Assembly (NCBI GenBank): GCA_900554895.1
Contig: USIX01000022.1
Location: 1 to 19,749 of the forward strand
Direction of reading: 5' to 3'
Length of the DNA: 19,749 bases
Source: an uncultured Megamonas sp.
Lineage (GTDB): Bacteria; Bacillota; Negativicutes; Selenomonadales; Selenomonadaceae
The position numbers and the translations under genes are program-made. Under the pieces are notes generated by a model. The model made no database searches. It had not been told where the DNA came from and worked only from the letters and a program-made list of their open reading frames with translations. Below, piece by piece: positions 65 through 19,749 of this stretch (its first letter is position 1; the number at the start of each line of letters is the position of its first letter).

Positions 65-73
65 TTTCTTTAA

Positions 74-103: not shown

Positions 104-155
104 AAATAGAAATTATTTTATATGATAAAATAGTATCAATGAATATAAAACTTAG

Positions 156-162
156 AAAAGGA
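156..162 (+). promoter_or_regulatory. Ribosome binding site deciding the regulator start
   Basis: AAAAGGA lies 9 nt before the ATG at 172. The in-frame ATG at 139 has no purine-rich stretch in front of it. The start at 172 is therefore preferred. Confidence 0.7.
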
Positions 163-171
163 TTTTCGCTT

Positions 172-2013: not shown

Positions 2014-2028
2014 TTTTTTCATAAACAA

Positions 2029-2071: not shown

Positions 2072-2148
2072 ATCCGCTTAAAAATTCAACATTGCATTCG
2101 CTATTGAAAATATTGATATTCCCGCAAAAATTCAGATAAATTTTTATG

Positions 2149-2165
2149 TTGGCACGCAATTTGCA
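2149..2165 (+). promoter_or_regulatory. Sigma-54 (-24/-12) promoter of uxaB-uxaA-kdgK-eda
   Basis: TTGGCACGCAATTTGCA matches the RpoN consensus (TGGCAC-N5-TTGC) with correct spacing between the GG at 2151-2152 and the GC at 2163-2164. Transcription would start near 2175, leaving a 5' UTR of about 55 nt before the uxaB ATG at 2231. The adjacent gene encodes a sigma-54 activator with an intact GAFTGA loop, which supports the call. Confidence 0.92.
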
Positions 2166-2214
2166 TTAAATATATAATGTCTGCATTCGGAATTTATATC
2201 ACATCAATAATTAT

Positions 2215-2222
2215 AAAAGGAG
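2215..2222 (+). promoter_or_regulatory. Ribosome binding site deciding the uxaB start
   Basis: AAAAGGAG ends 8 nt before the ATG at 2231. The in-frame ATG at 2177 falls at the predicted transcription start and has no ribosome binding site. Confidence 0.85.
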
Positions 2223-2230
2223 CGCTTATA

Positions 2231-3703: not shown

Positions 3704-3706
3704 ATT

Positions 3707-5194: not shown

Positions 5195-5215
5195 ATACTT
5201 TACAGGAGGGATTAT

Positions 5216-6163: not shown

Positions 6164-6189
6164 ACCTTTAATAATTAAACAAAATAAAC

Positions 6190-6193
6190 GGAG
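6190..6193 (+). promoter_or_regulatory. Ribosome binding site deciding the eda start
   Basis: GGAG abuts the ATG at 6194 directly, so that ATG cannot be used efficiently. It stands 9 nt before the in-frame ATG at 6203, which is therefore the likely start. Confidence 0.75.
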
Positions 6194-6202
6194 ATGTTAA
6201 TA

Positions 6203-6841
6203 ATGATTAGTGAAAACATGCAGAAAATATTCGATATCGGACTTGTTCCGCTTGTAGTTTTAGATGATGCCAATGATGCCGTACCGCTTGCCAAAGCACT
6301 TGTTGCCGGCGGCATTCCCGTAGCCGAAGTGACATTCCGCACGGCGGCAGGCGGCGACACCATTTACAAAATGGCGCATGAAGTACCGGAAATCATCGTC
6401 GGTGCAGGTACGGTGCACGATGTTGCTCATGCCCAAGAAGCCGTGGAAAAAGGCGCAAAATTCATTGTTTCTCCGGGACTCAATCCTGCCGTTGTCAAAT
6501 GGTGCGTAGACAATAATATCGACGTACTTCCGGGAACGGTTACACCGAGCGATATTGAAACAGCCATGTCATTCGGCCTTACAATCTGCAAATTCTTCCC
6601 TGCCGAAGTATACGGCGGCGTTAAAACTTTAAAAGCACTTGCAGGTCCTTTCGGCGATATCAAATTCATGCCGACAGGCGGCGTCAATGAAAATAATATG
6701 AACGACTATCTGGCTCTGCCGAACGTTGCGGCAATCGGCGGAAGTTTCATGCTGCCGAATAAACTTGTAAAAGCAAAACAGTGGGATGAAATCACAGCTC
6801 TTTGTAAATCTATTGTTGCTAAAAACATTAGAAACAAATAA
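6203..6841 (+). CDS. eda: KDPG aldolase (2-dehydro-3-deoxyphosphogluconate aldolase)
   Basis: Class I aldolase that cleaves KDPG to pyruvate and glyceraldehyde-3-phosphate, the last step of this pathway. Numbered from 6203 (212 aa), the family signatures are present: AEVTFRT with E42 and R46, the VGAGTV loop, SPGLNP, and the Schiff-base lysine K130 in CKFFPAE. These correspond to E45, R49 and K133 of E. coli Eda. The phosphate-binding region PTGGVNENN follows. Some Eda relatives act on KDPGal or 4-hydroxy-2-oxoglutarate, but KdgK next door points to KDPG. Last gene of the operon; no terminator is visible directly behind it, and the next strong one is at 7024-7070. Confidence 0.95.
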   Translation: MISENMQKIFDIGLVPLVVLDDANDAVPLAKALVAGGIPVAEVTFRTAAGGDTIYKMAHEVPEIIVGAGTVHDVAHAQEAVEKGAKFIVSPGLNPAVVKWCVDNNIDVLPGTVTPSDIETAMSFGLTICKFFPAEVYGGVKTLKALAGPFGDIKFMPTGGVNENNMNDYLALPNVAAIGGSFMLPNKLVKAKQWDEITALCKSIVAKNIRNK

Positions 6842-6872
6842 TTTTATCTTTTTCACAAATAAAACTATCGTA

Positions 6873-6886
6873 TTTCTATTTTGAAA
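6873..6886. promoter_or_regulatory. Candidate upstream activator site 2 (TTTC-N6-GAAA)
   Basis: TTTCTATTTTGAAA differs from site 1 (TTTCAATTTTGAAA) at one position and lies at almost the same distance (about 94 bp) upstream of an identical type of promoter. A further TTTC-N6-GAAA match at 6939-6952 (TTTCATTAAAGAAA) is much closer to the promoter and may be chance in AT-rich DNA. Binding by the regulator at 172-2013 is inferred. Confidence 0.5.
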
Positions 6887-6970
6887 AAATTCACCTTTCC
6901 TCTCTCTTAAAAATAAATATATTACTGCATAAATACTGTTTCATTAAAGAAAATATCTTTAATCAATTAT

Positions 6971-6987
6971 TTGGCACGATAATTGCA
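6971..6987 (+). promoter_or_regulatory. Second sigma-54 (-24/-12) promoter
   Basis: TTGGCACGATAATTGCA shares TTGGCACG and TTGCATT plus spacing with the uxaB promoter. The predicted start is near 6998. The hydrogenase operon lies about 200 bp downstream, but a strong terminator intervenes. The promoter may therefore make a short RNA, or feed the operon only under antitermination. Confidence 0.88.
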
Positions 6988-6997
6988 TTTAACTAAT

Positions 6998-7074
6998 GTT
7001 AGGCAGTAATAGAACCTCTATCAAAAAATATAGATAATGGTGTAATCTACACTTCATTATCTATATTTTTGTAT
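6998..7074 (+). ncRNA. Candidate sigma-54-driven small RNA or attenuated leader (about 75-77 nt)
   Basis: The predicted start of the -24/-12 promoter (near 6998) and the end of the terminator U-tract (about 7072-7074) bracket a transcript typical of a small regulatory RNA. It would have a 25-nt unstructured 5' part containing a CU-rich AACCTCT stretch (7013-7019) and a terminal 21-bp hairpin. No open frame with a ribosome binding site lies in it. It could instead be only the untranslated leader of the hydrogenase operon with an attenuator. It resembles Vibrio Qrr RNAs only in being sigma-54 controlled. Confidence 0.4.
7024..7070 (+). terminator. Strong terminator hairpin between the sigma-54 promoter and hydrogenase genes
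   Basis: Arms 7024-7039 and 7055-7070 are perfect 16-bp complements. Inside them GTGTA (7040-7044) pairs with TACAC (7048-7052) around an ATC loop, with a TT bulge. The 3' arm ends TATTTTTG, giving the U-tract. It can end transcripts from the -24/-12 promoter at 6971 and also read-through from eda. Confidence 0.8.
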
Positions 7075-7090
7075 ACATTACATCCGTATA

Positions 7091-7119
7091 TTCACTCTAA
7101 AAGAAATTTATGCTAAGAT
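7091..7119 (+). promoter_or_regulatory. Candidate sigma-A promoter of the hydrogenase operon
   Basis: TTCACT (7091-7096), a 17-bp spacer, and TAAGAT (7114-7119) preceded by TGC give an extended -10 promoter. The start would be near 7126, about 70 nt before the first gene and downstream of the terminator. The hydrogenase genes could thus be transcribed independently of sigma-54. Confidence 0.5.
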
Positions 7120-7194
7120 AGAACTAATATAAATCTTATTTAAATCTATGTCTGTTTTTATTAATTGTATATATTATAAAGGTAGGTTGATGAC

Positions 7195-7695
7195 ATGATT
7201 GCTGACAACACGAATTTTGAGCTTACTGATGCTCTTAAAGAAAAAATCAAAAGCATCATAGCAGCTCATGATTATGATTTTACTCAAATTGTTGGTATAT
7301 TGGTTGAAGTTCAGCAGGAAATTCCGCAGCATTATATTCCAAAAATCGTAGCTTATTATATTGCGGAAAATTTACCTGATGTTAAAGTATCCGTCATTTA
7401 TGACTGCATCACTTTCTACGATGCTCTCTCCGATAAACCGCGAGGACGGTATCCAATTGAAGTATGCAATAATATTGCCTGCAAAGTTAATAACAATAAA
7501 TTTTTAATTGATACTTTGCAGAAGCTTTTGAATATCGGTTTTGACAGTGTAACGTATGACGGCAAATTTACTTTGGAAAAAGTTTCCTGTTTCGGTGCTT
7601 GTGATAAAGCTCCTGCTGTCCGTATTAACGGTCAGGTTTACGGCAATCTCGACAGCGAAGAAAAAATCCGCGCACTGCTTGAAAAATTCATCTAA
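7195..7695 (+). CDS. hydC: NuoE-like [2Fe-2S] subunit of NAD-linked [FeFe]-hydrogenase (HydC)
   Basis: Thioredoxin-fold [2Fe-2S] subunit of the 24-kDa NuoE family (166 aa). The four ligands C91, C96, C132 and C136 have the exact C-x4-C-x35-C-x3-C spacing of NuoE. An N-terminal helical bundle (about 1-75) precedes the ferredoxin part. In trimeric soluble hydrogenases this subunit docks on the NuoF-like flavoprotein. It is followed 33 nt later by that subunit and then by the catalytic subunit, which separates it from a complex I gene. The start ATG at 7195 has a moderate ribosome binding site (AAAGGTAGG). Confidence 0.9.
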   Translation: MIADNTNFELTDALKEKIKSIIAAHDYDFTQIVGILVEVQQEIPQHYIPKIVAYYIAENLPDVKVSVIYDCITFYDALSDKPRGRYPIEVCNNIACKVNNNKFLIDTLQKLLNIGFDSVTYDGKFTLEKVSCFGACDKAPAVRINGQVYGNLDSEEKIRALLEKFI

Positions 7696-7728
7696 ACAGA
7701 AAACTAAGGAAAGGCAGGGTTTTATGAT

Positions 7729-8970
7729 ATGAGTACAGTTCAGTACATAACCGAAAATTTTGGTAAATACGATGTATTCTCCATTGAATCTTATATGAAT
7801 ATAGGCGGTTTTTCTGCTTTAAAAAAAGCTGTAACAATGGATAAAGAGGATATCGCCTCTCTACTCAGCGAAGCGAAAATCAAAGGACGCGGCGGTGCCG
7901 CCTACCCTATGGGGCGAAAATGGTCGCAGGCTCGTGCAGTCCCTCGTCCGCATCATTGCGTTATCTGTAATGCCGACGAAGGCGAAACCTGCACATTTAA
8001 AGACCGTGAACTTATTACAAACGACCCGTTCAATTTAATTGAAGCTATCATCATTGCGGGCTGGGCAGTAGAGGCCGAGGACGGATATATCTACATGCGC
8101 GCCGAATACAGCCATCTCCGTCCGCGTCTTTTGAATGCGATAAAACAGGCGGAGGAAAACGGTTTTTTAGGCAAAAATATTCTCGGCACCGGCTGGGATT
8201 ATAAAATCCATCTCTATACAGGCGCCGGTGCATATGTCTGCGGTGAAGGTACGGCTCTCATCCGCTCCATGGAAGGCAAGGCAGGCCGTCCCCGCATGAA
8301 ACCGCCGTTTATGAAACAGAGCGGTCTGTTCGCCCGTCCGACCTGCATGAATAATGTGGAAAGTCTGTCCATCGTACCACACCTTCTGCGCGACAATGCT
8401 AAAACTTATATGAAATACGGCGTAGGCGAATCACTCGGCACTAAACTTGTCAGCGTAGGCGGAAATGTAAAAAAACCCGGCGTTTATGAAATTCCGTTCG
8501 GTACTACTATTCGTGAAATCATCTACGATATGGCCGGCGGTATTCAGGGTGACAGAAATATACGCTTAATTCAGTTCGGCGGGGCATCCGGCAAAATTGC
8601 CGACAGCAGTATTTTGGATGTGCCGTACACCTATGAAGATTTTGATAAGCACGATTTAATCATCGGTTCCGGTTCTATTCTCGTCATAGACGAACGTACT
8701 TCCGTAATCGATTTTCTGCGCTATACACAGGACTTTTTCCTGCATGAAAGCTGCGGTCAGTGCACACCGTGCCGTGAAGGCAACCGCCACATCAAAATGT
8801 TCCTCGACAAGATTAAAGCCGGTACACACACACAGGAAGATTTAGACACCATGACGACATTCGCCAAAGTAATGCCGATGTCATCGTTGTGCGGTCTCGG
8901 TGAAACGGCGCAGAATGCTTTAAAATCCGCTATGAATATATTCCCTGACGTTTTTACAGTTAAAGAATAG
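7729..8970 (+). CDS. hydB: NuoF-like flavoprotein subunit of NAD-linked [FeFe]-hydrogenase (HydB), short form
   Basis: Carries the FMN and NAD(H) site and one [4Fe-4S] cluster, passing electrons between NADH and the hydrogenase subunit. At 413 aa it is only the NuoF core. GRGGAAYPMGRKW (53-65) is the nucleotide/flavin loop, NADEGE (81-86) the flavin region, the SLBB-like part lies around 238-275, and the N3-type cluster ligands are C342, C345, C348 and C388 (SCGQCTPCREGN). It lacks both the N-terminal [2Fe-2S] thioredoxin domain and the C-terminal two-cluster ferredoxin domain found in Thermotoga-type bifurcating HydB (about 620 aa). The usual CGEETAL motif reads CGEGTAL here, with G174 replacing the second Glu. 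The ribosome binding site AAGGAAAGG lies rather far upstream (about 14 nt). Confidence 0.9.
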   Translation: MSTVQYITENFGKYDVFSIESYMNIGGFSALKKAVTMDKEDIASLLSEAKIKGRGGAAYPMGRKWSQARAVPRPHHCVICNADEGETCTFKDRELITNDPFNLIEAIIIAGWAVEAEDGYIYMRAEYSHLRPRLLNAIKQAEENGFLGKNILGTGWDYKIHLYTGAGAYVCGEGTALIRSMEGKAGRPRMKPPFMKQSGLFARPTCMNNVESLSIVPHLLRDNAKTYMKYGVGESLGTKLVSVGGNVKKPGVYEIPFGTTIREIIYDMAGGIQGDRNIRLIQFGGASGKIADSSILDVPYTYEDFDKHDLIIGSGSILVIDERTSVIDFLRYTQDFFLHESCGQCTPCREGNRHIKMFLDKIKAGTHTQEDLDTMTTFAKVMPMSSLCGLGETAQNALKSAMNIFPDVFTVKE

Positions 8971-8986
8971 GAGGATATGAGAGTTA

Positions 8987-10729
8987 ATGGAAGAGTTAAT
9001 CCATCTTAAAATAAATAATATGCCTGTAACGGTAAAAAAAGGCACAAAAATTTTAGAAGCTGCCCGCATGCTTCATATCGATATACCGCATTTATGCTAT
9101 CACCCTGACCAGAGAGTCAAGGCAAGATGCCGTATCTGCTCTGTTGAAGTTGTCGGCAAACGCCGTCTCCTCGCCGCCTGCTCCACTGAATGCTGGGAAG
9201 GCATGGAAGTATATACCGATACGCAGGTTGTCCGCGATACGCAGCGCGGTATCTTACAGCTCATCATGGCTGACCACGAAGAAAACTGCCTTACCTGCCC
9301 GCGTAACGGCAACTGTGTTCTGCAAAGTCTCTGCAGCCGCTTCAACGTGCTGAAACCGAAAATTCCGCATGTAAGCAAACCGAAACCAAAATTCGGCAAC
9401 AATCCTAGTCTTCTGCATGACCCGGAAAAATGCGTAAAATGCGGTCGCTGCATTCGTGCCTGCAAAGACATTCAGGGAATTGAAGTATTGGGCTTTGCCG
9501 GTCGCAGTACCAATATTCACATTACGACACCGTTCAATGATGAATTCAACAATACGCAGTGTGTATTGTGCGGTCAATGTTCCCTTGCCTGCCCTGTAGG
9601 TGCGCTTGTGGAAAAAGATGATACGGAACGTGTTCTCGATGCTATTTTCGACCCGGAAAAAATCGTTATCGTACAGACTGCTCCAAGTGTGCGTGTTGCC
9701 TTAGGGGATGCTTTCGGTCTGCCGAAAGGAAGCATTGTTACGAAAAAAATGGTTACGGCACTGCGCATGATTGGTTTTGATAAAGTATTTGACACAAATT
9801 ACGGCGCCGACCTCACCATTACAGAAGAAGCCAATGAATTAATCGAACGCATTAAATCCGGCAAAAAAATGCCGATGGCAACTTCCTGCTGCCCTGGCTG
9901 GGTAAATTACATGGAAAAACATTATCCGGATTTACTCGACCATTTATCCACGACAAAATCGCCAATGCAGATTTTCTCCGCTATCACTAAAACGCATTAC
10001 GCCAAACAGGAAAATATCGACCCGAAAAAAATCTTTACCGTTGCCGTTATGCCGTGTATTGCCAAAAAATATGAAATTACCCGTCCGGAAATGGGACGCG
10101 ACGGCTATCAGGATACGGATGCCGTTATCACGACACGCGGTCTAATCAAACTCATAAAATATATCGGTATTGATTTCAACAATCTGCCGGAGAGCGAATT
10201 CGACAATCCTATGGGCGAAGCAACGGGGGCCGCTGCTATTTTCGGCGCAACGGGCGGCGTTATGGAAGCTGCACTGCGCACAACATACGAATGGCTCACG
10301 GGTAAGGAAATGCAAAACGTTGAGTATACGCCTGTTCGCGGTTTCGACGGTATCAAAGAAGCTGAAATCGATATTAACGGTAAAAAAGTCCGCATCGCTG
10401 TTGCCCACACGCTCAAAAACGCCAAAGTGATTATGGACAAACTGCGTGCCGGTGAATGCGAATATGATTTTATTGAAGTAATGGCATGCCCTGGCGGCTG
10501 TCTCGGCGGCGGCGGCCAACCGGTCGATACCACTATGGCTGTAAATAAAAAACGTATGGAAGCACTTTACACAATCGATAAAAATACGAAATACCGCAAA
10601 TCGCATGAAAATCCTTATCTGAAAAAACTTTATGAGGAATTTCTCGAAAAACCGGGCAGCAAAATCGCCCATGAACTTTTGCATACGCATTATCATGCCA
10701 GAGAAAAAATGTACGACTTTGACAAATAA
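8987..10729 (+). CDS. hydA: [FeFe]-hydrogenase catalytic subunit (HydA)
   Basis: Reversible H2-forming subunit (580 aa) with the multi-cluster architecture of Clostridium CpI. There is an N-terminal [2Fe-2S] ferredoxin domain (C37, C48, C51, C65) and a His-Cys [4Fe-4S] (H97, C101, C104, C110). Two [4Fe-4S] clusters follow (C149/152/155/159 and C192/195/198/202). The H-cluster motifs are TSCCPGW (C301 proton relay, C302 ligand), MPCIAKKYE (C357) and MACPGGCLGGGGQP (C501, C505). All run at an offset of two from CpI numbering, so every H-cluster ligand is kept. A small-subunit-type C-terminal region follows (about 520-580). AGGAGG lies 12 nt before the ATG. No signal peptide is seen, so the enzyme is cytoplasmic. 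Confidence 0.97.
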   Translation: MEELIHLKINNMPVTVKKGTKILEAARMLHIDIPHLCYHPDQRVKARCRICSVEVVGKRRLLAACSTECWEGMEVYTDTQVVRDTQRGILQLIMADHEENCLTCPRNGNCVLQSLCSRFNVLKPKIPHVSKPKPKFGNNPSLLHDPEKCVKCGRCIRACKDIQGIEVLGFAGRSTNIHITTPFNDEFNNTQCVLCGQCSLACPVGALVEKDDTERVLDAIFDPEKIVIVQTAPSVRVALGDAFGLPKGSIVTKKMVTALRMIGFDKVFDTNYGADLTITEEANELIERIKSGKKMPMATSCCPGWVNYMEKHYPDLLDHLSTTKSPMQIFSAITKTHYAKQENIDPKKIFTVAVMPCIAKKYEITRPEMGRDGYQDTDAVITTRGLIKLIKYIGIDFNNLPESEFDNPMGEATGAAAIFGATGGVMEAALRTTYEWLTGKEMQNVEYTPVRGFDGIKEAEIDINGKKVRIAVAHTLKNAKVIMDKLRAGECEYDFIEVMACPGGCLGGGGQPVDTTMAVNKKRMEALYTIDKNTKYRKSHENPYLKKLYEEFLEKPGSKIAHELLHTHYHAREKMYDFDK

Positions 10730-10732
10730 ATT

Positions 10733-11803
10733 ATGAATATGAATAAATCCTATAAAATAATTGATGATTTAACGATTAATCCTTCTTTTAATGAAGAACA
10801 CATCAAATCCCTTTTACAGGATTTACGCAGCGAAAATTACACGGGGCCGCTCAGCGAATATTTATTTGCGGCGGCTCGTTTCGTTCGCGAACCTTTTTAC
10901 GGACACAGAGTTTTCCTGCGCGGCTTAATCGAATTCACCAATTACTGCAAAAACGACTGTTACTACTGCGGTATCCGCCGTTCTAATGCCAACGCCGTCC
11001 GGTACCGCCTGACAAAAGAGGAAATACTGCACGCCTGTAAAATCGGTTATGCCAATGGACTGAGAACATTCGTGCTGCAAGGCGGTGAAGATATGTATTT
11101 CACCCCGAAAAGAATGACGGATATAATCTCTTCCATAAAAGAAAATTATCCCGACTGCGCACTGACTCTTTCCATCGGAGAAAAGGAATATAATGAATAT
11201 ATCTCTTATTTCAAAGCCGGAGCTGACAGATTTCTGCTGCGCCACGAAACAGCGGACAAATCACACTACCAGAAACTGCATCCGCAGGAAATGAGCCTTG
11301 TCCACCGGTTAAACTGCCTGAAAGAATTAAAAGAAATCGGTTTTCAGACAGGTGCCGGAATGATGATTGGCTCGCCGTACCAGAGCATGGATAATTTAAT
11401 TACAGATATAAAATTCTTGAGCAGTTTCAAACCGCATATGATTGGCATGGGACCGTTCATTCCGCACAATCAGACACCGTTTAAAGACAAACCGGCAGGA
11501 AGCGTAGAAATCACGCTCGTACTTTTATCCATCATTCGGCTGCTGCTGCCGAAAGTTCTTCTGCCTGCCACCACGGCACTTGCCACCCTCAGTGAAAACG
11601 GTACGATAAAAGGGCTAAAAGCGGGAGCAAATGTCATTATGCCGAATATCTCACCTACTGACATCAGAAATCTATATACTCTATATAACAACAAGAAAAT
11701 AACGGGCGGCGAGTCTCTGGAAGGCATCAACAATTTAAAAGCTATGCTCAAGAAACACGGCTACGAAGCTGTTACCGCCCGCGGCGACAGTTTGATACAA
11801 TAA
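10733..11803 (+). CDS. hydE: [FeFe]-hydrogenase H-cluster radical SAM maturase HydE
   Basis: Radical SAM enzyme needed to build the dithiomethylamine-bridged diiron site of the H-cluster. The 356-aa protein has the CxxxCxxC motif NYCKNDCYYCGIRRSN (C72, C76, C79) and a biotin-synthase-like barrel with LQGGEDMYF and LLRHETAD segments. No C-terminal accessory cysteine cluster is present, as in many HydE proteins. The start lies 3 nt after the hydA stop. I see no ribosome binding site before ATG 10733 or the in-frame ATG 10739, so translation probably depends on coupling to hydA. Confidence 0.95.
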   Translation: MNMNKSYKIIDDLTINPSFNEEHIKSLLQDLRSENYTGPLSEYLFAAARFVREPFYGHRVFLRGLIEFTNYCKNDCYYCGIRRSNANAVRYRLTKEEILHACKIGYANGLRTFVLQGGEDMYFTPKRMTDIISSIKENYPDCALTLSIGEKEYNEYISYFKAGADRFLLRHETADKSHYQKLHPQEMSLVHRLNCLKELKEIGFQTGAGMMIGSPYQSMDNLITDIKFLSSFKPHMIGMGPFIPHNQTPFKDKPAGSVEITLVLLSIIRLLLPKVLLPATTALATLSENGTIKGLKAGANVIMPNISPTDIRNLYTLYNNKKITGGESLEGINNLKAMLKKHGYEAVTARGDSLIQ

Positions 11804-11823
11804 AAAATTTTTATGAAAGAAGT

Positions 11824-13251
11824 ATGATAGCTTTGTATAATCCAAAATCTTCAAAAGCAGAAGAATTCATCAATCATGAAGAAATTCTTGCCACGCTTTC
11901 TTATGCTGATGAAAATAAACATAATGCAGCTTTAATCAAGGAAATCCTAGCTAAGGCAAAACTGGAAAAAGGGCTTTCGCACCGTGAGGCTTCCGTGCTG
12001 CTCGCCTGCGATATTCCTGAACTCAACGAAGAAATTTTCCATCTTGCCAAAAAAATTAAAGATGATTTCTACGGCGACAGAATTGTACTGTTCGCACCGC
12101 TGTATCTTTCCAATTACTGCGTAAACGGCTGCGTCTACTGCCCGTATCATGCTAAGAATAAGCATATTCCGCGCAAAAAACTGTCGCAGGAAGATATCAA
12201 GCGTGAAGTAATCGCCCTTCAGGATATGGGACACAAGCGCCTTGCACTGGAAACGGGCGAAGACCCTGTAAACAATCCGATTGAATACGTACTGGAAAGC
12301 ATCAAAACCATCTACAGTATTAAGCACAAAAACGGCGCAATCCGCCGCGTAAATGTCAATATCGCTGCTACAACAGTGGAAAATTACCGCAAACTGAAAG
12401 AAGCCGGTATCGGTACGTATATTCTGTTTCAGGAAACATATCACAAGGAAAGTTATGAAAAACTTCATCCGACAGGACCGAAACACGATTACGCCTACCA
12501 TACGGAAGCTATGGACAGAGCCATGGAAGGCGGTATTGACGATGTGGGCTGCGGCGTTTTATTCGGTCTGGAAAAATACCGCTATGAATTTGCTGGTCTT
12601 TTAATGCACGCCGAACATCTGGAAGCTCGCTTCGGCGTTGGGCCTCATACTATCAGTGTTCCGCGTATCCGCCGCGCTGACGATATCGACCCGTCAGCTT
12701 TCGACAACGGCATTGATGATGATACATTCGCCAAAATCGTCGCCTGCATTCGTGTTGCCGTACCGTATACAGGTATGATTGTATCGACGCGCGAAAGCCA
12801 GAAATGCCGTGAACGCGTACTTCAGCTCGGTATTTCTCAGATAAGCGGCGGCTCCCGCACGAGTGTCGGCGGTTATGCCGAAAAAGAACTGCCGGAAGAA
12901 GATTCCAGCCAATTTGACGTAAGCGATAACAGAACACTTGATGAAGTCGTAAACTGGCTCATGAAACAGGATTTCGTGCCGAGCTTCTGCACAGCCTGCT
13001 ACCGCGCCGGCCGTGTCGGCGACAGATTTATGAGCCTGTGCAAAAGCGGTCAGATTTCCAACTGCTGTCTGCCGAATGCTCTCATGACACTCAAGGAATA
13101 TCTCTGCGATTATGCCAGTGAAGATACCAAAAATACCGGTAATACCTTAATAGCCAAACAAATTCCACTGATAAAAAGCGATAAAGTCCGCGCTATTGTT
13201 GAAAAACAGCTCCATCTCATTGAAGAAGGACAGCGCGATTTCAGATTTTAA
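11824..13251 (+). CDS. hydG: [FeFe]-hydrogenase H-cluster radical SAM maturase HydG
   Basis: Tyrosine-lyase radical SAM enzyme that generates the CO and CN ligands of the H-cluster. The 475-aa protein carries the SAM cluster motif SNYCVNGCVYCPYH (C99, C103, C106). It also carries the C-terminal auxiliary cluster motif C-x2-C-x22-C (starting FCTACYRAGRVGDRF), which separates HydG from ThiH. SGGSRTSVGGY is another family segment. It follows hydE by 20 nt and precedes hydF by 14 nt; the ribosome binding site (GAAAGAAG) is weak. Confidence 0.96.
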   Translation: MIALYNPKSSKAEEFINHEEILATLSYADENKHNAALIKEILAKAKLEKGLSHREASVLLACDIPELNEEIFHLAKKIKDDFYGDRIVLFAPLYLSNYCVNGCVYCPYHAKNKHIPRKKLSQEDIKREVIALQDMGHKRLALETGEDPVNNPIEYVLESIKTIYSIKHKNGAIRRVNVNIAATTVENYRKLKEAGIGTYILFQETYHKESYEKLHPTGPKHDYAYHTEAMDRAMEGGIDDVGCGVLFGLEKYRYEFAGLLMHAEHLEARFGVGPHTISVPRIRRADDIDPSAFDNGIDDDTFAKIVACIRVAVPYTGMIVSTRESQKCRERVLQLGISQISGGSRTSVGGYAEKELPEEDSSQFDVSDNRTLDEVVNWLMKQDFVPSFCTACYRAGRVGDRFMSLCKSGQISNCCLPNALMTLKEYLCDYASEDTKNTGNTLIAKQIPLIKSDKVRAIVEKQLHLIEEGQRDFRF

Positions 13252-13265
13252 GAGAGGTCTTTTCT

Positions 13266-14465
13266 ATGGATTTAAATCAAACACCGTCCGCCAACCGCAC
13301 GCATATCGCCTTTTTCGGTATGCGCAATGCCGGTAAATCCAGCCTTATGAATGCCGTTACCGGACAGAATATCGCTGTCGTTTCCGAAATAAAAGGCACA
13401 ACTACCGACCCTGTTTTAAAATCAATGGAACTGCTGCCGCTCGGTCCCGTTACCGTTATTGATACAGCAGGACTTGATGACAGCGGCACTCTCGGCAGGC
13501 TGCGCACGGAAAAAACAATGCAGATTCTGCGCAGGACGGATATTGCCGTACTTGTAATTAACGCAATGTACGGCATGACTTCATTTGATGAGGAAATTTT
13601 AAATCAGATAAATGAACAGCAAATACCGTATGTTCTCGCTTACAACAAAATAGATTTAAAACCCGATTTAAAACAGCAGCTCTCAGCAGATGAACGAACT
13701 GTTTTTGTGAGTGCCGCCACCGGTGAAGGCATTAATGAATTGAAAGAAAAACTGGCTCATTTTGCCAAAACGAAACAGGAAAAATTCATTCTGAAAGATA
13801 TCATTGCACCGAAGGATACCGTCGTTCTCGTTATTCCGATTGATAAGGCCGCTCCGAAAGGCCGCCTAATCCTACCGCAGCAGCAGGTAATACGCGAACT
13901 TTTGGATATCGGCGCAACAGCCGTCATGACGCAGGATGATAATTTGGCTGATACGCTGAATAATCTAAAGACAAAACCGCGCCTTGTAATCACGGACAGC
14001 CAGGCATTCGCCAAAGTCAATAAAATCGTACCGCAGGAAATGGAGCTGACTTCTTTTTCCATTTTATTCTCCCGCTATAAAGGCAATCTAAAGCGACAGG
14101 TCTCTGCCGTAAAAATCCTTGATACGATTAAAGACGGCGATAAAATACTTATCGCCGAAGGCTGCACTCATCATCGTCAATGTGATGATATCGGCACGGT
14201 AAAACTGCCGAACTGGATAAAAAAATATACTAAAGCCGACCCACAGTTTATTTTTACCTCCGGAACGGAATTCCCGCATGATTTATCCGCCTATAAGCTT
14301 ATAATCCACTGCGGCGGCTGCATGCTCAACGAACGGGAAATGCAGTCCAGACTAAAAGCTGCACAAAAACAGCACATTCCTATGAGCAACTATGGAACAG
14401 CCATCGCTTATATGAACGGAATTTTGCAGCGAACCGTGCGTCCATTAAAAATTTCAATTAAATAA
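13266..14465 (+). CDS. hydF: [FeFe]-hydrogenase maturation GTPase HydF
   Basis: Scaffold GTPase that assembles the diiron subcluster and delivers it to HydA. The 399-aa protein has an N-terminal TrmE/Era-like G domain: G1 GMRNAGKSS (18-26), G2 GTTTDP, G3 DTAGLDD (66-72) and G4 NKIDL. A dimerisation domain follows. The C-terminal cluster domain has the ligands of the CxH...HCxxC motif (CTHH and HCGGC). A good ribosome binding site (AGAGAGG) precedes the ATG. It is the last gene of the hydrogenase operon, with a strong terminator right behind it. Confidence 0.96.
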   Translation: MDLNQTPSANRTHIAFFGMRNAGKSSLMNAVTGQNIAVVSEIKGTTTDPVLKSMELLPLGPVTVIDTAGLDDSGTLGRLRTEKTMQILRRTDIAVLVINAMYGMTSFDEEILNQINEQQIPYVLAYNKIDLKPDLKQQLSADERTVFVSAATGEGINELKEKLAHFAKTKQEKFILKDIIAPKDTVVLVIPIDKAAPKGRLILPQQQVIRELLDIGATAVMTQDDNLADTLNNLKTKPRLVITDSQAFAKVNKIVPQEMELTSFSILFSRYKGNLKRQVSAVKILDTIKDGDKILIAEGCTHHRQCDDIGTVKLPNWIKKYTKADPQFIFTSGTEFPHDLSAYKLIIHCGGCMLNEREMQSRLKAAQKQHIPMSNYGTAIAYMNGILQRTVRPLKISIK

Positions 14466-14468
14466 ACG

Positions 14469-14506
14469 AAAAACAGCGAACGCTTAAAAGTTGTTCGCTG
14501 TTTTTT
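14469..14506 (+). terminator. Rho-independent terminator after hydF
   Basis: AAAACAGCGAAC pairs with GTTCGCTGTTTT around an 11-nt loop, followed by a run of T residues. The A-run on the other side allows it to work for the convergent minus-strand gene ending at 14514 as well. Confidence 0.88.
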
Positions 14507-14513
14507 ACATCAT

Positions 14514-14981
14514 TTATAATTTTATTCTCCGTGCTACTGTTTTTATAACTTTAGCCCCTTTTTTCTTTATGCTGCGCAATGGACGAAGCGGTGCTATTCT
14601 GATTTTTATACGCGGTTTCACGTCTTTAACCGTACCGAAATCGCCCCGTTTTAGATAAGTCATTCTGATTTTTTCAGGTTTAACAATTTTCTTCAATGCT
14701 TTTACGGCTTTTTCCGGCTTACCGTCTTCCGCACAAATAAAAATATCGCTCGATACGTATTTCAATTCCGGATAAGTACGGATTACCGCATGACCTTCCT
14801 GCAATAAAATAAATACAACAGCCTCTTTTTCATTCAAAATCTGTGCACGTACTTCAATCGGCGTAAAACCCGCCATGTTCATTCCAATTTCCAAAGAGTC
14901 TTTTAAATCCGTATAATCACTTAAATTTTTACTTTTACAATCATACATATCTACTGTCAGCTGTCTTGCTAAAATCTTCAC
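14514..14981 (-). CDS. AdoMet-decarboxylase-like protein lacking the pyruvoyl serine, with basic tail
   Basis: Residues 1-115 of this 155-aa protein align by eye with bacterial S-adenosylmethionine decarboxylase (SpeD/SpeH class 1b): MKILARQLTVDMYDC at the start, then QEGHAVIRTYPE and SSDIFIC. In Thermotoga SpeH the chain is cleaved at S63 (ESH) to make the pyruvoyl cofactor. Here position 63 is Gly (codon GGT), S55 is Val and H68 is Arg, while C83 is kept. It should therefore not self-process or decarboxylate AdoMet. Residues 124-155 carry about 13 Lys/Arg and no acidic residue, a tail unlike the enzyme. The start is GTG with GGGAGAGAGAG upstream on the minus strand. Function unknown; ligand sensing or nucleic-acid/membrane binding are guesses. 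Confidence 0.75.
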   Translation of the reverse strand: MKILARQLTVDMYDCKSKNLSDYTDLKDSLEIGMNMAGFTPIEVRAQILNEKEAVVFILLQEGHAVIRTYPELKYVSSDIFICAEDGKPEKAVKALKKIVKPEKIRMTYLKRGDFGTVKDVKPRIKIRIAPLRPLRSIKKKGAKVIKTVARRIKL

Positions 14982-15002
14982 GGCTCTCTCTCCCAGTCAT
15001 AA

Positions 15003-15032
15003 ATTATAACAATATTATATCATAGCCCCCAA
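15003..15032 (-). promoter_or_regulatory. Candidate promoter of the AdoMetDC-like gene
   Basis: On the minus strand TATAAT (plus 15003-15008) is preceded by TG one base upstream (extended -10). It stands 18 nt from a weak -35, TTGGGG (plus 15027-15032). Transcription would start near 14996, leaving a very short leader that contains the ribosome binding site. Confidence 0.4.
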
Positions 15033-15064
15033 AATTTATATATAATGATATAATAATTATATAA

Positions 15065-15094
15065 TTGCATATATAACCGCCTCATCCCGATAAT
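15065..15094 (+). promoter_or_regulatory. Candidate promoter of the secreted protein gene
   Basis: TTGCAT (15065-15070), an 18-bp spacer, and GATAAT (15089-15094) predict a start near 15101 and an 80-nt leader. The leader contains a small hairpin, AAAACCG-CTAT-CGGTTTT (15121-15138), without a convincing U-tract. Confidence 0.45.
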
Positions 15095-15165
15095 GCGGAA
15101 TTTATCCATAATAACCAATCAAAACCGCTATCGGTTTTATTTATACGGCAAACAATACATATCTG

Positions 15166-15172
15166 TAAGGAG
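15166..15172 (+). promoter_or_regulatory. Ribosome binding site deciding the secreted protein start
   Basis: TAAGGAG ends 8 nt before the ATG at 15181. The in-frame GTG at 15172 overlaps the ribosome binding site and is unlikely to be used. Confidence 0.8.
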
Positions 15173-15180
15173 TGATTACT

Positions 15181-15789
15181 ATGTTCAAAAAATCTCTTTT
15201 CCTAGGCTACCTGCTCTTTATCATGTTGTTTAACGTCTGTATGGCTCAAGAACAGACACGGCCTTTAAAAGTAGCCATCATGCCGATTGCTACGGATGTT
15301 TCCGGTTATAAAAGCGTAAAAGCCAGTCTGTACAATACGCTTAAACAACAAATGCGTATTCCGCTGAACGATACGCTTCAAATCGTTGAATATATTGATA
15401 CGGAAACAGTGTACCGTGCTATGCAGCAATCTAACTTTACGAATGAGCAAAATCTTGATACACTTAAAAGTACAGCCGATTTACTAAACGCTGACGTTAT
15501 TGTCGGCTATGAAGTTCCCAATATGTTCCAGCATTATTTCCATTTTGCTTCCCACCTGGACGGGGCACCGGTTATCAGCACCTACATCTCCTTAAAACTC
15601 TGGGCATATTACAGACCGCTGAACCAGACCGTTGAACTTTCCACACAGAGAAATTATGTCGGTACATTGAACACGGCCAGCCTGCTGCCTGCTCTTGCCG
15701 ACGATGCATCCTATTACATCAATAAAAAAGCCGATTTAAAAGGCTTATTAAAACAATCCATACAAATACAGAAAGGTGATGTTCAATGA
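15181..15789 (+). CDS. Secreted protein of unknown function (signal peptide, TolB/CsgG-like alpha-beta domain possible)
   Basis: The 202-aa product begins MFKKSLFLGYLLFIMLF, a positively charged then hydrophobic signal peptide. A plausible signal peptidase I site follows CMA near residue 22; the Cys does not sit in a convincing lipobox. The mature part starts with a beta strand (KVAIMPI) and continues with LQIVEYIDTETVYRAMQQ and STADLLNADVIVGYEV. This order recalls the TolB N-terminal / CsgG-like family (strand, helix, degrade-or-detect strand, 'ADVIV' strand). That is a fold-level guess without a diagnostic motif. The stop overlaps the start of the next gene (ATGA), so the two are translationally coupled. 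Confidence 0.7.
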   Translation: MFKKSLFLGYLLFIMLFNVCMAQEQTRPLKVAIMPIATDVSGYKSVKASLYNTLKQQMRIPLNDTLQIVEYIDTETVYRAMQQSNFTNEQNLDTLKSTADLLNADVIVGYEVPNMFQHYFHFASHLDGAPVISTYISLKLWAYYRPLNQTVELSTQRNYVGTLNTASLLPALADDASYYINKKADLKGLLKQSIQIQKGDVQ

Positions 15790-16181
15790 ATATCGTTTAC
15801 TCCCAAGAAAAAAACTTTACGGCCGAAACACTGCTTGATTTCTTTACAAAATCCGGCAATCCTGATGTCAAATACGGCGAAGCCCTTGTAAACGCTATAA
15901 ACACTTCCACTGTCATTCATGCGTGGGACAAAGACGCTGACGAATTGGCGGCTTTAATCTCCGTAATTGACGACGGCGCAACAACAGCTTACATCCGCTA
16001 TCTCATCGTCGCTCCTAACTACCGCGGCAAAGGCATTAACGATGAATTAATCGCACAGGTAAAAGCAAAATACGCTGATTATCCGTATTTATACGCATTC
16101 GCACCGGATGATTTTCATGCTTCCTTCTTCACGAAACTGGGCTTTAATACAGTTGACGGCATGAAAGTTTTATCCCGCTGA
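15786..16181 (+). CDS. GNAT family N-acetyltransferase, single domain
   Basis: A 131-aa protein with the GNAT acetyl-CoA-binding pattern: strand YIRYLIVAP, then the pyrophosphate loop NYRGKGIND (RGKGIN at 80-85) and the helix behind it. A C-terminal ASFFTKLGF segment is typical of motif B. The last position of the R/Q-x-x-G-x-G/A motif is Asn instead of Gly/Ala. The acceptor substrate is unknown. The start codon overlaps the stop of the secreted protein gene (ATGA) and AGAAAGGTGA serves as ribosome binding site. A terminator lies 25 nt after the stop, so the pair forms a two-gene operon. Confidence 0.85.
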   Translation: MNIVYSQEKNFTAETLLDFFTKSGNPDVKYGEALVNAINTSTVIHAWDKDADELAALISVIDDGATTAYIRYLIVAPNYRGKGINDELIAQVKAKYADYPYLYAFAPDDFHASFFTKLGFNTVDGMKVLSR

Positions 16182-16205
16182 TTAGTTCATTTTCTTTGAT
16201 ACAGC

Positions 16206-16245
16206 AAAAAATCCGTAAAGTTTCTGCTTTACGGATTTTTTATTT
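16206..16245 (+). terminator. Rho-independent terminator after the GNAT gene
   Basis: AAAATCCGTAAAG pairs with CTTTACGGATTTT around TTTCTG, followed by a T-rich tail (TTTATTTG). Confidence 0.9.
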
Positions 16246-16261
16246 GTTAAGGCGAGTAGAA

Positions 16262-16291
16262 TTGCAACGAAAATAGAAAAATTGCTATAAT
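16262..16291 (+). promoter_or_regulatory. Candidate promoter of the LysE-family gene
   Basis: TTGCAA (16262-16267), an 18-bp spacer and a perfect TATAAT (16286-16291). The predicted start near 16299 falls a few bases before the outer stem of the structured leader, so the whole structure would be in the 5' UTR. Confidence 0.6.
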
Positions 16292-16306
16292 AAACTATAA
16301 TTCACT

Positions 16307-16436
16307 ATCTGTTGTGCTAGTTGATTTTTTAAGCAGTACAATATTTTATATTTAGTGAGGTTAAGTGACAACAGGCAGCAAATATAAAATATTGTACTGC
16401 TGATGCAGACTAGATGTTTTTACCGGCACAACGGAT
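16307..16436 (+). ncRNA. Structured 5' leader element upstream of the LysE-family exporter (candidate cis-regulatory RNA)
   Basis: Outer arms 16307-16317 (ATCTGTTGTGC) and 16426-16436 (GCACAACGGAT) pair over 11 bp with one G-U. CTAGT (16317-16321) can pair with ACTAG (16409-16413). A perfect 22-bp stem joins 16332-16353 to 16380-16401 around a 26-nt loop. An alternative hairpin CTGC-TGAT-GCAG (16397-16408) would compete with the base of that stem. The element begins about 8 nt after the predicted transcription start and ends 13 nt before the ribosome binding site. I do not recognise a known riboswitch class. A small non-autonomous inverted-repeat element (MITE-like) is the main alternative. 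Confidence 0.55.
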
Positions 16437-16463
16437 AATCCACTACATAAAAGAGGTTTTGCT

Positions 16464-17081
16464 ATGGAATTATCTACATTTCTTTATTTTCTCATCGCTT
16501 CCGTTCTGCTGACGCTCGCACCAGGACCAGATATTATGTACCTGCTTGCCAAAAGCCTTGCCGACGGTGCAAGAAGCGGTATCAGTCTGGCAACAGGACT
16601 TTGCACCGGTCTAATCTTTCATACTACGCTTGTAATCATCGGTGTCGCCGCAATTATCCAGCAGTCGCCGCTGGCATTTGCCGCCCTTAAATACGTCGGA
16701 GCAGCTTACCTGCTATACCTAGCCTGGGGTGCATTCCACGCACAGGGCGATTTAAAACTCAATACTGTAAACAAAAGCAATTCTTATTTCAAACTATATC
16801 GCCGCGGCGTCATCATGAATATATTAAATCCGAAAGTATTACTATTCTTTCTCGCTTTTCTGCCACAATTCGTAAATCTTGACTCCGACAGCGTCAGCCT
16901 GCAAATCGCCTTTCTCGGCTTTGTATTCGGACTGCAGACACTCATTGTATTTTCTCTCGTTGCAATCTGCGCCGGCAAAGTCCGCGACTATATTTTAAAT
17001 ATAAAAAACTTCAATAAAATAATGGGCTATGTGCAGGGCATCGTGCTTATAGGTATTAGCCTCGCTCTAATCATTAGCTGA
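16464..17081 (+). CDS. LysE/RhtB family amino acid exporter
   Basis: A 205-aa inner-membrane protein with about six hydrophobic segments and the family's conserved N-terminal motif LAPGPDIMYLLAKSLADGAR followed by a glycine-rich second helix. The central NPKVLLFFLAFLPQF segment is also typical of RhtB/LysE proteins. These export amino acids (lysine, threonine, homoserine, leucine) or related small molecules; the substrate cannot be told from sequence. It is a single-gene transcript with its own promoter, a long structured leader and a terminator. Ribosome binding site AAAAGAGG lies 7 nt before the ATG. Confidence 0.93.
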   Translation: MELSTFLYFLIASVLLTLAPGPDIMYLLAKSLADGARSGISLATGLCTGLIFHTTLVIIGVAAIIQQSPLAFAALKYVGAAYLLYLAWGAFHAQGDLKLNTVNKSNSYFKLYRRGVIMNILNPKVLLFFLAFLPQFVNLDSDSVSLQIAFLGFVFGLQTLIVFSLVAICAGKVRDYILNIKNFNKIMGYVQGIVLIGISLALIIS

Positions 17082-17135
17082 AAAAAGCAGATAATAACTC
17101 TAATCATTTCAAACAAAGTTATTATCTGCTTTTTT
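17081..17135. terminator. Bidirectional terminator between the LysE-family and MFS genes
   Basis: AAAAAAGCAGATAATAAC (17081-17098) pairs with the segment 17118-17135 around a 19-nt loop. An A-run on one side and a T-run on the other allow use in both directions. Its 3' arm touches the stop codon of the convergent MFS gene, and its 5' arm begins at the last base of the LysE-family stop codon. Confidence 0.88.
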
Positions 17136-18297
17136 ATTTAATTATACTGAAAGACAATGTTATTAATACAACTCCGGAAGCAATCATTATCAACTGCAAA
17201 GACACTACATCCGCCATCATACCGAATATAGCCATACCTGTCGGCAATAAACCCGCATAAAGAGAGCTTATCATTCCAAAGACACGCCCTTGTATACATT
17301 CTTCCGTTTTTTCCTGCAACATTGTTGTTATCACCGTTTGAACTACAGTCATCGCAATTCCGTACATGAACATAAAACAGAGATACCACATAAAATTTTT
17401 TTCCATTCCCATTAATATTGTCATTGCACCAAAAATAAACAAACCGCTTTGCAATGTTTTTTCTTTTCGCGAAAACCCGCCCCATACACTTATTAACAAT
17501 CCGCCCAAACTCATACCGGCAAAACCAGCCGTTTCTACAAAAGTCAAATAATCATAAGAATTTTCAAATACTCTGCTGACAAAAAGCCCTGCAAAAAAAC
17601 CTGCCGGAACACATAAAAAAATAAATGCACTGTATATAAATAAAATCCTGTAGATAATTTCATTTTCAGACATGTATTTTATTCCGCTTCGCATATTCAA
17701 CCAAACGGAAGATTGTTTTTGTTTTATTCGTATTTCCGGTATTAATACTTTACTTAAAATTCCAATACCGATTATTGCTGTTAATATATCCAAAAACATT
17801 ACTATTCGTAAAGAAAAAAATGATAAAATTATTCCCGCTGTTATCGGAGCCGTAAACTGTATAACAGACTGCGCCGTCATATTAATTCCATTGAAACGAG
17901 CCAGACTCTCCTTTGGTACAATCTGTACAATGGCTGCATTTACCGCCGGAGTCTGAATACCTGCACAAGCGGAACGAAACAGCGATATACACAACAATAA
18001 ATACAACAATAAAATATTTTCATTTATATAAAACATACAAAATGTCCCTATCAATGTAACAACAGCTGTTACTGCATCTGCCGCTATAATTAAAAATTTT
18101 CTGCTGTACCAATCAGCCCATACTCCGCCCCAAAACGACACGATAAACTGCGGCAAATACGCACATATACTGCAAAGTGCCACCCATTCACCCGACAAAG
18201 TCTGCACTGTTATATACCATACAATCGCCATCTGCACAACAGTGGAACCGAACAATGTTATTGCTTGACTTATCAAAAATAAAATCGCGTTCATCAT
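17134..18297 (-). CDS. MFS transporter, macrolide/drug-efflux (MefA/EntS-like) type
   Basis: A 387-aa polytopic membrane protein, about 11-12 hydrophobic helices, of the MFS_3 type. It begins MNAILFLISQAITLFGS, matching the first-helix motif of MefA-like proteins (QAxSLxxS...QMAIxWY), but is shorter before helix 1 than most. The motif A region GGVWADWYSRKFLIIAAD lies between helices 2 and 3, and RSACAGIQTPAVNAAIVQIVP resembles the conserved helix 4 segment of the family. It probably exports a drug-like or siderophore-like compound by proton antiport; the substrate is unknown. Its start overlaps the stop of the upstream AraC-GNAT gene (ATGA), so the two form one transcript. Confidence 0.88.
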   Translation of the reverse strand: MMNAILFLISQAITLFGSTVVQMAIVWYITVQTLSGEWVALCSICAYLPQFIVSFWGGVWADWYSRKFLIIAADAVTAVVTLIGTFCMFYINENILLLYLLLCISLFRSACAGIQTPAVNAAIVQIVPKESLARFNGINMTAQSVIQFTAPITAGIILSFFSLRIVMFLDILTAIIGIGILSKVLIPEIRIKQKQSSVWLNMRSGIKYMSENEIIYRILFIYSAFIFLCVPAGFFAGLFVSRVFENSYDYLTFVETAGFAGMSLGGLLISVWGGFSRKEKTLQSGLFIFGAMTILMGMEKNFMWYLCFMFMYGIAMTVVQTVITTMLQEKTEECIQGRVFGMISSLYAGLLPTGMAIFGMMADVVSLQLIMIASGVVLITLSFSIIK

Positions 18298-19124
18298 TTT
18301 TTTCCTATAAGAACAAATCTCTGCGTAGGATAACCGAACTCTATCAACAGCTCCCTTTCAATAAATCCCAGCTGTTTTAATTTTATTCGATAACCTGTAT
18401 CCGCTTTATCTTTTTCTCTGTAAGTTGTTATATAGATATCTTTTTGCGGTAGAAATTCCCTTTGCAATTTATTTAAAAATTTTTCTTCAATGCCTTCATT
18501 TCTATACTGCGGATGAATACCGAAAAATTCTATGTTACCGGTTCTATATGAAAAAGCCATTATGCCGACTGCTTTGTCCTCACATTCTAAAATCAAAGCT
18601 CTTTTTTGTTTAATACATTTTTTCAAATTCATAAGATAATCTGCTTCATCAAAATAAGGATACCCATCAATTACCAACTTCACTAATTCAATCCAAGCTA
18701 GAATATCTTTATATTCAGCCAAACGGATTTTTGTTAAATAAATTTGACGTTTGTTCTCTTTATACAGCCTAAATCGCAACTGCAACGGATAAAAAATTCT
18801 ATTTTTCCGATAATCAGCCGGTGCTTTTTTATACATTTCCCTGAAAGCTACAGTAAACGCCTGCTGACTTTCATAACCGCAGATAACAGCAATATCTATA
18901 ATTGCTTTTCGGGAAAATATTAATAACTCGGCAGCTCTCGTAAGCTGACGCCGTTGTACATAAGCACGAATTGTCATACCAGAAACCTCTGTAAACATAC
19001 GATGTAAATGATATTTAGAATAATGTACTGCCTGAGCTATTTTCGTTAAATTCAATTTTTCCTCAATATGATTTTCAATAAAATCAATAACTGCTTCAGT
19101 AATTACAATTCTATTATCTTCCAT
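18294..19124 (-). CDS. AraC-family regulator fused to a GNAT acetyltransferase domain
   Basis: A 276-aa protein with an N-terminal AraC/Rob-type double HTH: helix-turn-helix 1 at about 25-45 (LTKIAQAVHYSKYHLHRMF) and helix-turn-helix 2 at about 75-98 (IAVICGYESQQAFTVAFR), then the KAPADYRK signature. Rob/SoxS-like regulators with this N-terminal arrangement usually carry a GyrI-like ligand domain. Here residues 129-276 look like a GNAT domain instead (ALILECEDKAVGIMAF, NIEFFGIHPQYRNEGIEE, KQLGFIERE). The acetyl-CoA loop RNEGIE (208-213) has Glu in place of the final Gly/Ala, so catalysis is uncertain and the domain may only sense. AAAGGAGG precedes the ATG. It is coupled by ATGA overlap to an MFS exporter gene, suggesting local control of export or resistance. 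Confidence 0.87.
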   Translation of the reverse strand: MEDNRIVITEAVIDFIENHIEEKLNLTKIAQAVHYSKYHLHRMFTEVSGMTIRAYVQRRQLTRAAELLIFSRKAIIDIAVICGYESQQAFTVAFREMYKKAPADYRKNRIFYPLQLRFRLYKENKRQIYLTKIRLAEYKDILAWIELVKLVIDGYPYFDEADYLMNLKKCIKQKRALILECEDKAVGIMAFSYRTGNIEFFGIHPQYRNEGIEEKFLNKLQREFLPQKDIYITTYREKDKADTGYRIKLKQLGFIERELLIEFGYPTQRFVLIGKK

Positions 19125-19142
19125 TTTTGCCTCCTTTCTTTT

Positions 19143-19162
19143 AATAATATCAAAATATTATT
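19143..19162. promoter_or_regulatory. Palindrome in the promoter region of the AraC-GNAT gene
   Basis: AATAATAT-CAAA-ATATTATT is a perfect inverted repeat with 8-bp arms. It overlaps a TATTAT -10-like hexamer on the minus strand, about 20-40 bp before the start codon. It could be an operator, for instance for autoregulation, but AT-rich DNA yields such repeats by chance. Confidence 0.3.
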
Positions 19163-19189
19163 CTTTTATTTTAATAAATCTTGCTAAAT

Positions 19190-19234
19190 AAAAAAGCCGA
19201 ACGACGATTTTTCATCTGTCGTTCGGCTTTTATT
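19190..19234 (-). terminator. Rho-independent terminator of lysS
   Basis: AAAAGCCGAACGAC pairs with GTCGTTCGGCTTTT around a 12-nt loop. Read on the minus strand it is followed by TTTTTTATTT, and it lies about 10 nt after the lysS stop codon. Confidence 0.9.
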
Positions 19235-19240
19235 TATATC

Positions 19241-19749
<509 letters not shown>

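Follow-up and report, generated by a model that had tools for sequence, protein, structure and literature searches.

A SpeD-like protein with a conserved basic tail and, in most members, no pyruvoyl-forming serine

An uncultured Megamonas sp. (GenBank assembly GCA_900554895.1, contig USIX01000022.1, positions 1 to 19,749) carries a gene for a 155-residue protein that looks like S-adenosylmethionine decarboxylase (AdoMetDC, SpeD) and yet has no serine where that enzyme forms its pyruvoyl group. We refer to the whole stretch of 19,749 nucleotides as the window. The question raised by this locus is what such a protein does, and whether it stands alone. The AdoMetDC fold proposed in the preliminary description of the gene was borne out: the window protein matches AdoMet_dc (PF02675) with an E-value of 4.1e-21 and 75.8 bits (cut-off 25), matches the equivalog TIGR03330 with 78.6 bits (cut-off 75.65), and aligns to Thermotoga maritima AdoMetDC without gaps across residues 1-117. 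By fold it belongs with the class 1b AdoMetDCs. Since both cut-offs are passed, automatic annotation would name the gene SpeD or adenosylmethionine decarboxylase, and the named database relatives are all labelled (S-)adenosylmethionine decarboxylase. The gene and its parts are as follows.

14514..14981, minus strand: coding sequence of the tailed AdoMetDC-like pseudoenzyme, 155 amino acids, GTG start at 14981 and stop at 14516-14514 (from AdoMet_dc, TIGR03330 and relatives)
14661..14981, minus strand: AdoMetDC-fold core, residues 1-107
14793..14795, minus strand: codon 63, GGT (Gly), at the position of the pyruvoyl-forming Ser in AdoMetDC (from the alignment)
14817-14819 (Val55), 14778-14780 (Arg68) and 14733-14735 (Cys83), minus strand: other active-site codons (from the alignment)
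14604..14660, minus strand: junction motif TYLKRGDFGTVKDVKPRIK, residues 108-126, the best-conserved stretch of the family (by entropy)
14517..14603, minus strand: basic end, residues 127-155 (from composition, structure prediction and amphipathicity)

The same alignment confirmed the substitutions that had first drawn attention to the gene, with Ser63 replaced by Gly, Ser55 by Val and His68 by Arg, and only Cys83 retained. The window protein has neither the Ser63 nor the complete His68 and Cys83 pair of class 1b AdoMetDC, and it likewise lacks the full Ser63, His68 and Cys83 set of the SpeDA and SpeDC decarboxylases. All three residues are essential for processing of the T. maritima enzyme, according to passages of PMC10407285. 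Whether Gly63 is real or a sequencing error was settled by its homologues. Among 47 protein-database homologues, several of which are truncated or chimeric fragments, residue 63 is Gly in 44, Ala in one, a gap in two and Ser in none. Of 115 relatives found by scanning genome_contigs, 80 loci were kept, and each of these has Gly63. For residue counts the window was pooled with 211 loci, some fetched twice, giving 156 distinct sequences, 147 tailed and nine untailed. Residue 63 of the tailed sequences is Gly in 117, Ser in 16, Cys in five, Thr in three, Ala in three, and His, Phe or Val in one each, with no conserved Ser, Thr or Cys standing in for the missing serine. With Ser63 gone and no such replacement there should be no self-cleavage and no pyruvoyl group; judged from their sequences, it follows from known chemistry that the Gly63 members cannot be pyruvoyl decarboxylases.

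The protein is far from a local oddity. Loci from genome_contigs carry the labels Selenomonadaceae, Selenomonadales and Veillonellaceae, with genera including Propionispira, Selenomonas, Megamonas, Mitsuokella, Anaerovibrio, Quinella and Massilibacillus (one locus, L034, ends early at a contig edge), and a scan of viral_contigs returned no relatives. Larger samples of 151 genomes at the level of order, 300 at class and 398 at phylum were centred on genome G005, reached through locus L010 of a Selenomonas ruminantium record (the species is now listed by NCBI as Pseudoselenomonas ruminantium); we take the class and order to be the NCBI Negativicutes and Selenomonadales of that species. The family alignment matches 283 of the 300 class genomes, and all 30 of the weaker-scoring ones that were rechecked match up to model positions 138-151 of 152, inside the tail. 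An AdoMet_dc match was found in 147 of the 151 order genomes, a count that mixes tailed and untailed proteins. At the phylum level 266 of 398 genomes match. Among the matches listed there, which leave out the weakest, 14 span the tail without stops, all from genomes also in the class sample; the next-best (E 6e-22) reach only to position 117, and the ones that were read prove to be ordinary SpeD with Ser63 and no tail. Three listed matches outside the tailed group pass position 130, each through stop codons. Among the members that carry a name in the database are Phascolarctobacterium, Veillonella montpellierensis and Acidaminococcaceae, with 90-94% of the window protein aligned. The tail is present in relatives without Ser63, the co-occurrence that the preliminary description had proposed to look for. 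On this sequence evidence the protein is a member of a class-wide family of tailed paralogues of class 1b AdoMetDC (SpeD). As a separate observation, Vpar_0438 of Veillonella parvula, annotated as an AdoMet decarboxylase proenzyme, changes -18 fold in a coaggregation transcriptome with Streptococcus gordonii, as given in parts of PMC6529473; it could be either the tailed protein or a long SpeD.

Not every tailed protein has lost its active site. The Ser63-His68-Cys83 triad is retained in 12 of the 147 tailed sequences. Eleven of these come from class genomes with sizes of 2.7-5.3 Mb, and the twelfth (L209, in G255) from a genome of 1.8 Mb. The protein of G255 is the sole AdoMet_dc match there and SpeE is present, and this triad-bearing form may well be an active AdoMetDC. 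The existence of such triad-bearing tailed proteins means that loss of the enzyme does not by itself account for the tail. A tree of 97 rows, five of them outgroup, was built with column 63 left out; it requires at least eight changes between Ser and other residues at that position, with Ser in all five outgroup rows. This points to several separate losses of Ser63, as a rough count.

What, then, has been kept? The last 32 residues of the window protein hold 13 Lys/Arg and no Asp/Glu, exactly as first described. Across 92 tailed rows the tail has a median net charge of +9 (range 4 to 19) versus -1 for the core, and mean column entropy is lowest in the junction, with 1.26 bits at residues 108-126 against 2.52 at 1-50, 2.07 at 51-88, 1.97 at 89-107 and 1.83 at 127-155. 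All 92 rows have Arg112 and Pro123. Median dN/dS is 0.097 for the whole gene, 0.114 for the core and 0.045 for the tail (197 non-independent pairs at 70-98.5% identity; 196 for the core and 191 for the tail). Because the junction is the best-conserved part and the tail has the lowest dN/dS, the strongest constraint in these alignments is outside the catalytic site. The predicted structure has a strand at 124-129 followed by a low-confidence helix at 136-152, which is amphipathic in sequence, and in 78 of 91 rows the basic tail helix exceeds shuffled sequences in amphipathicity (p<=0.05).

We also asked how the tailed protein relates to spermidine synthesis, using hand-chosen, non-random sets of 20 and 50 genomes, and 25 for the search for nspC (carboxynorspermidine decarboxylase). 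Genome completeness is not stated for these sets, which makes single gene absences weak and the overall pattern stronger. All 20 genomes of the first set have the tailed protein, and 11 also have a longer, Escherichia coli-like SpeD, assigned to class 1a by length and by eye, with an intact K-S-H site in 10 of the 10 copies read. The tailed protein is likewise in 50 of the 50 class genomes of the second set, of which 37 have a further AdoMet_dc match and 13 have none, making it the sole AdoMet_dc match in 22 of the 70 chosen genomes. A SpeE match is absent from 11 of the 50, and both SpeE and a second AdoMet_dc match are absent from nine; in those nine, carboxynorspermidine decarboxylase has no match at or near the cut-off in six, a match above it in two and one just below it. 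Since the tailed protein persists without another AdoMetDC or SpeE, it is unlikely to be a spermidine enzyme or an obligate prozyme. No speE was recognised in the window. The two close relatives of the window (G023 and G032) have a speD-speE pair that lies about 1.2 Mb and about 386 kb, respectively, along the contig from the tailed gene, and the SpeD of each pair retains its Ser.

Two further patterns emerged from these gene counts. A full SpeE match (at least 186 bits) occurs with the Ser63-less tailed protein as the only AdoMet_dc match in 10 of the 70 chosen genomes (G005, G008, G009, G012, G013, G014, G019, G191, G182 and G209; loci L091, L093 and L097). Carboxynorspermidine decarboxylase was above the cut-off in all five of these that were searched for nspC (G005, G013, G191, G209 and G182). 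The SpeE proteins of these 10 genomes are thus orphans as regards a source of decarboxylated AdoMet. Six of the 50 genomes have three AdoMet_dc matches. For G231, G261 and G264, frame lengths suggest one long SpeD plus two short ones, of which one is tailed and one untailed. The third match consists of split or partial matches in G175 and G220, and perhaps in G190.

Our preferred reading, which we hold to be somewhat probable, is that the window protein descends from a tailed SpeD paralogue and now serves as a non-enzymatic docking protein. The AdoMetDC core would provide a platform that is stable and probably dimeric. Its docking to one specific acidic macromolecule would come from the conserved junction (R-G-D-F-G...D-M-K-P) together with the basic amphipathic helix; RNA or a protein partner is the most likely target, the inner membrane a less likely one. 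When the tailed protein was still an enzyme, its tail may have served to position it; the lineage of the window would have kept the docking role alone. Several points weigh against this reading. The pocket-region residues His64, Tyr70, Tyr75, Asp79 and Cys15 are nearly invariant, and a pure scaffold might not need them. Support in the tree is patchy, with 37 of 94 inner branches open and the number of losses rough, and the tree-aware test of Ser63 loss against pocket relaxation had just four independent pairs. The tail helix is predicted at low confidence (pLDDT 57-59), and basic amphipathic helices are common. A tail sequence from the family gave no match against solved chains (best E 0.41). 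No match to the family was found in 17 of the 300 class genomes, and no AdoMet_dc match in four of the 151 order genomes. Among the loci compared no constant neighbour pointed to a partner.

The main rival of the docking reading is its ligand-gated version, in which AdoMet or a polyamine would bind to the core without being turned over and the tail would relay the state of the core to RNA or a partner. We consider this unlikely, if still deserving of attention. The fold is retained, the core is under purifying selection, and His64 (145 of 147 tailed sequences), Tyr70 (129), Asp79 (146) and Cys15 (146) are conserved. However, Phe49 and Glu72, which we take to be AdoMet contacts, are relaxed where the triad is missing: Phe49 is found in 11 of the 12 triad rows versus eight of the 135 without a triad, and Glu72 in 11 of 12 versus 60 of 135. 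This weakens the AdoMet sensing that the preliminary description had raised as an attractive but unproven idea. In addition, no AdoMet or polyamine gene was recognised beside the tailed gene, and the tailed protein occurs where no tested spermidine route was found.

A bolder form of the docking reading, which we regard as rather doubtful, would make the protein a near-universal core factor of the Negativicutes: an adaptor bound to RNA or the ribosome, or to the inner membrane, tied to the diamine-decorated wall and derived from an active tailed SpeD by several losses of the serine. Narrower, and improbable in our estimate, is a role in the envelope itself, with the tail at the inner membrane and the protein helping to link cadaverine or putrescine to peptidoglycan, or tuning that step. 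Passages of PMC10628300 describe cadaverine or putrescine on the peptidoglycan of class members such as V. parvula and S. ruminantium. The distribution of the tailed protein follows the class, it persists in genomes that lack the spermidine genes tested for, and its tail helix is basic and amphipathic. The agreement is, however, a coincidence of distribution only, and the sole envelope-related gene among the recurrent neighbours identified, lgt (31 of 81 loci), is lineage-bound.

It is quite improbable that the protein is still an enzyme with pyruvoyl-free chemistry built on His64, Tyr70, Asp79 and Cys15 or Cys83. The first four are nearly invariant in the family, Cys83 less so, being lost in 24 of the 147 tailed sequences, and His68 is lost in 10. 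His64 and Asp79 (both nine of nine) and Cys15 (seven of nine) are, however, also conserved in the untailed SpeD rows, such that their conservation may be structural, and the gene has no metabolic context. Still harder to sustain is a prozyme, which would form a heterodimer with an active AdoMetDC and switch its activity on, as in trypanosomatids. Activation by a dead paralogue is documented for Trypanosoma brucei AdoMetDC in parts of PMC5201418. The 11 chosen genomes with a longer SpeD, the 37 with a further AdoMet_dc match, and the intact AdoMetDC of both close relatives of the window would fit such a pairing. The tailed protein is also a dead paralogue, as judged by its residues only. Yet an accompanying active AdoMetDC is not a property of the family, with no other AdoMet_dc match in 22 of the 70 genomes; the tailed gene lies far from speD-speE in both relatives, and the tailed protein is of the short type while the would-be partner is of the long type. 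Decay or sequence error, to which the missing active-site residues might have pointed, is refuted by two results: Gly63 recurs in the database homologues (44 of 47) and in the tailed sequences (117 of 147), and the gene is under purifying selection. We give this reading almost no weight.

Compared with known systems, the window protein shares with class 1b AdoMetDC (T. maritima TM0655; 1tlu and 1vr7) the fold, the ungapped alignment over 1-117, and His64, Asp79 and Cys83. It differs in its lack of Ser63, His68 and Ser55, in about 38 extra C-terminal residues, and in the distance of speE from the tailed gene in both close relatives. SpeDA and SpeDC, arginine and ornithine decarboxylases derived from SpeD (PMC10407285, in part), are similar as additional SpeD homologues able to coexist with a true SpeD; unlike the window protein, they are active and self-process at the serine. 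Dead AdoMetDC domains are described in portions of PMC12803844, for animal spermine synthase, and of PMC10407285, for SpeD-SpeDC fusions. Catalysis has there too been lost from the bacterial class 1b fold, and the dead domain of spermine synthase is retained for dimer formation; however, those are domain fusions, and the window protein is free-standing with its own tail. The trypanosome prozyme is also a dead AdoMetDC paralogue retained in the genome, but it is of the larger eukaryotic type and partners an active enzyme, unlike a family that is the only AdoMet_dc match in almost a third of the chosen genomes. A free-standing, class-wide, dead bacterial AdoMetDC with a conserved tail did not turn up among the papers listed by our searches of an open-access collection. 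A gene matched in 283 of 300 sampled class genomes is taken for a spermidine enzyme, although most members of its family cannot be one, so polyamine pathways inferred for gut, oral and rumen bacteria of this class may contain an error at this step. In addition, the family offers a natural series, from triad plus tail to Gly63 plus tail, in which to test how an enzyme becomes a docking protein.

The preliminary description had also seen a functional clue in the adjoining radical SAM maturases, which the comparison of loci did not uphold. hydF (13266-14465) adjoins the pseudoenzyme gene and is convergent with it, and its product is 70% identical to that of Pectinatus, the nearest named organism among the best 120 rows. 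G023 (81% DNA identity) and G032 (75%) share with the window a syntenic stretch of about 8 kb that ends at the pseudoenzyme gene, and the tailed protein of G023 is 95% identical to that of the window. The hydF arrangement is common to these two nearest genomes and was seen in none of the 56 other loci compared. Elsewhere the recurrent neighbours are lgt, cobT (30 of 81 loci), fabK, recD2 and others, depending on lineage, and the upstream neighbour is divergent in 33 of 40 class-wide loci (L235-L274, with ORFs called mechanically). The hydrogenase-maturase setting looks local, with no visible functional signal.

The flanks of the gene contain two further features.

14984..14994, minus strand: Shine-Dalgarno-like GGGAGAGAGAG (read from the sequence)
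14468..14506: hairpin that has A and T runs and resembles a terminator in both directions, located between the pseudoenzyme gene and the convergent hydF

The gene had been called intact on the strength of its open frame, ribosome binding site and promoter. The open frame and the Shine-Dalgarno-like site (GGGAGAG) upstream stand, and are joined by the low dN/dS. The promoter found no support in a consensus scan, which gave two matches where shuffled sequences averaged 3.5; neither of the two lies upstream of the pseudoenzyme gene on the strand that encodes it. The hairpin folds at -19.7 kcal/mol (z -5.2) and is absent from the consensus terminator scan, perhaps due to a bulge or to the T run lying inside the stem. 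That scan did place a terminator-like site upstream of the pseudoenzyme gene (minus strand, 15139-15120; 0.5 expected).

Beyond these flanks, positions 15172-15789 hold a 205-residue ORF that diverges from the pseudoenzyme gene and whose start resembles a signal peptide; it gave one Pfam match at E 0.099 and one NCBIfam match at 0.074, and none at 1e-20. Genes for three subunits of an NADH-linked [FeFe] hydrogenase occupy positions 7195-14465 together with hydE, hydG and hydF, which come directly after them. At 139-6841 the gene for a sigma-54 activator with a PrpR_N domain is followed by what is probably a set of hexuronate catabolic genes: a mannitol-dehydrogenase-family oxidoreductase, an altronate/galactarate dehydratase, and then kinase- and aldolase-like ORFs recognised by eye. 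At locus L070, positions 8500-10536 encode a 678-residue frame that matches CobT only over residues 16-290 and belongs to the cluster found at 30 of 81 loci; by eye, its C-terminal half resembles a second, diverged CobT domain.
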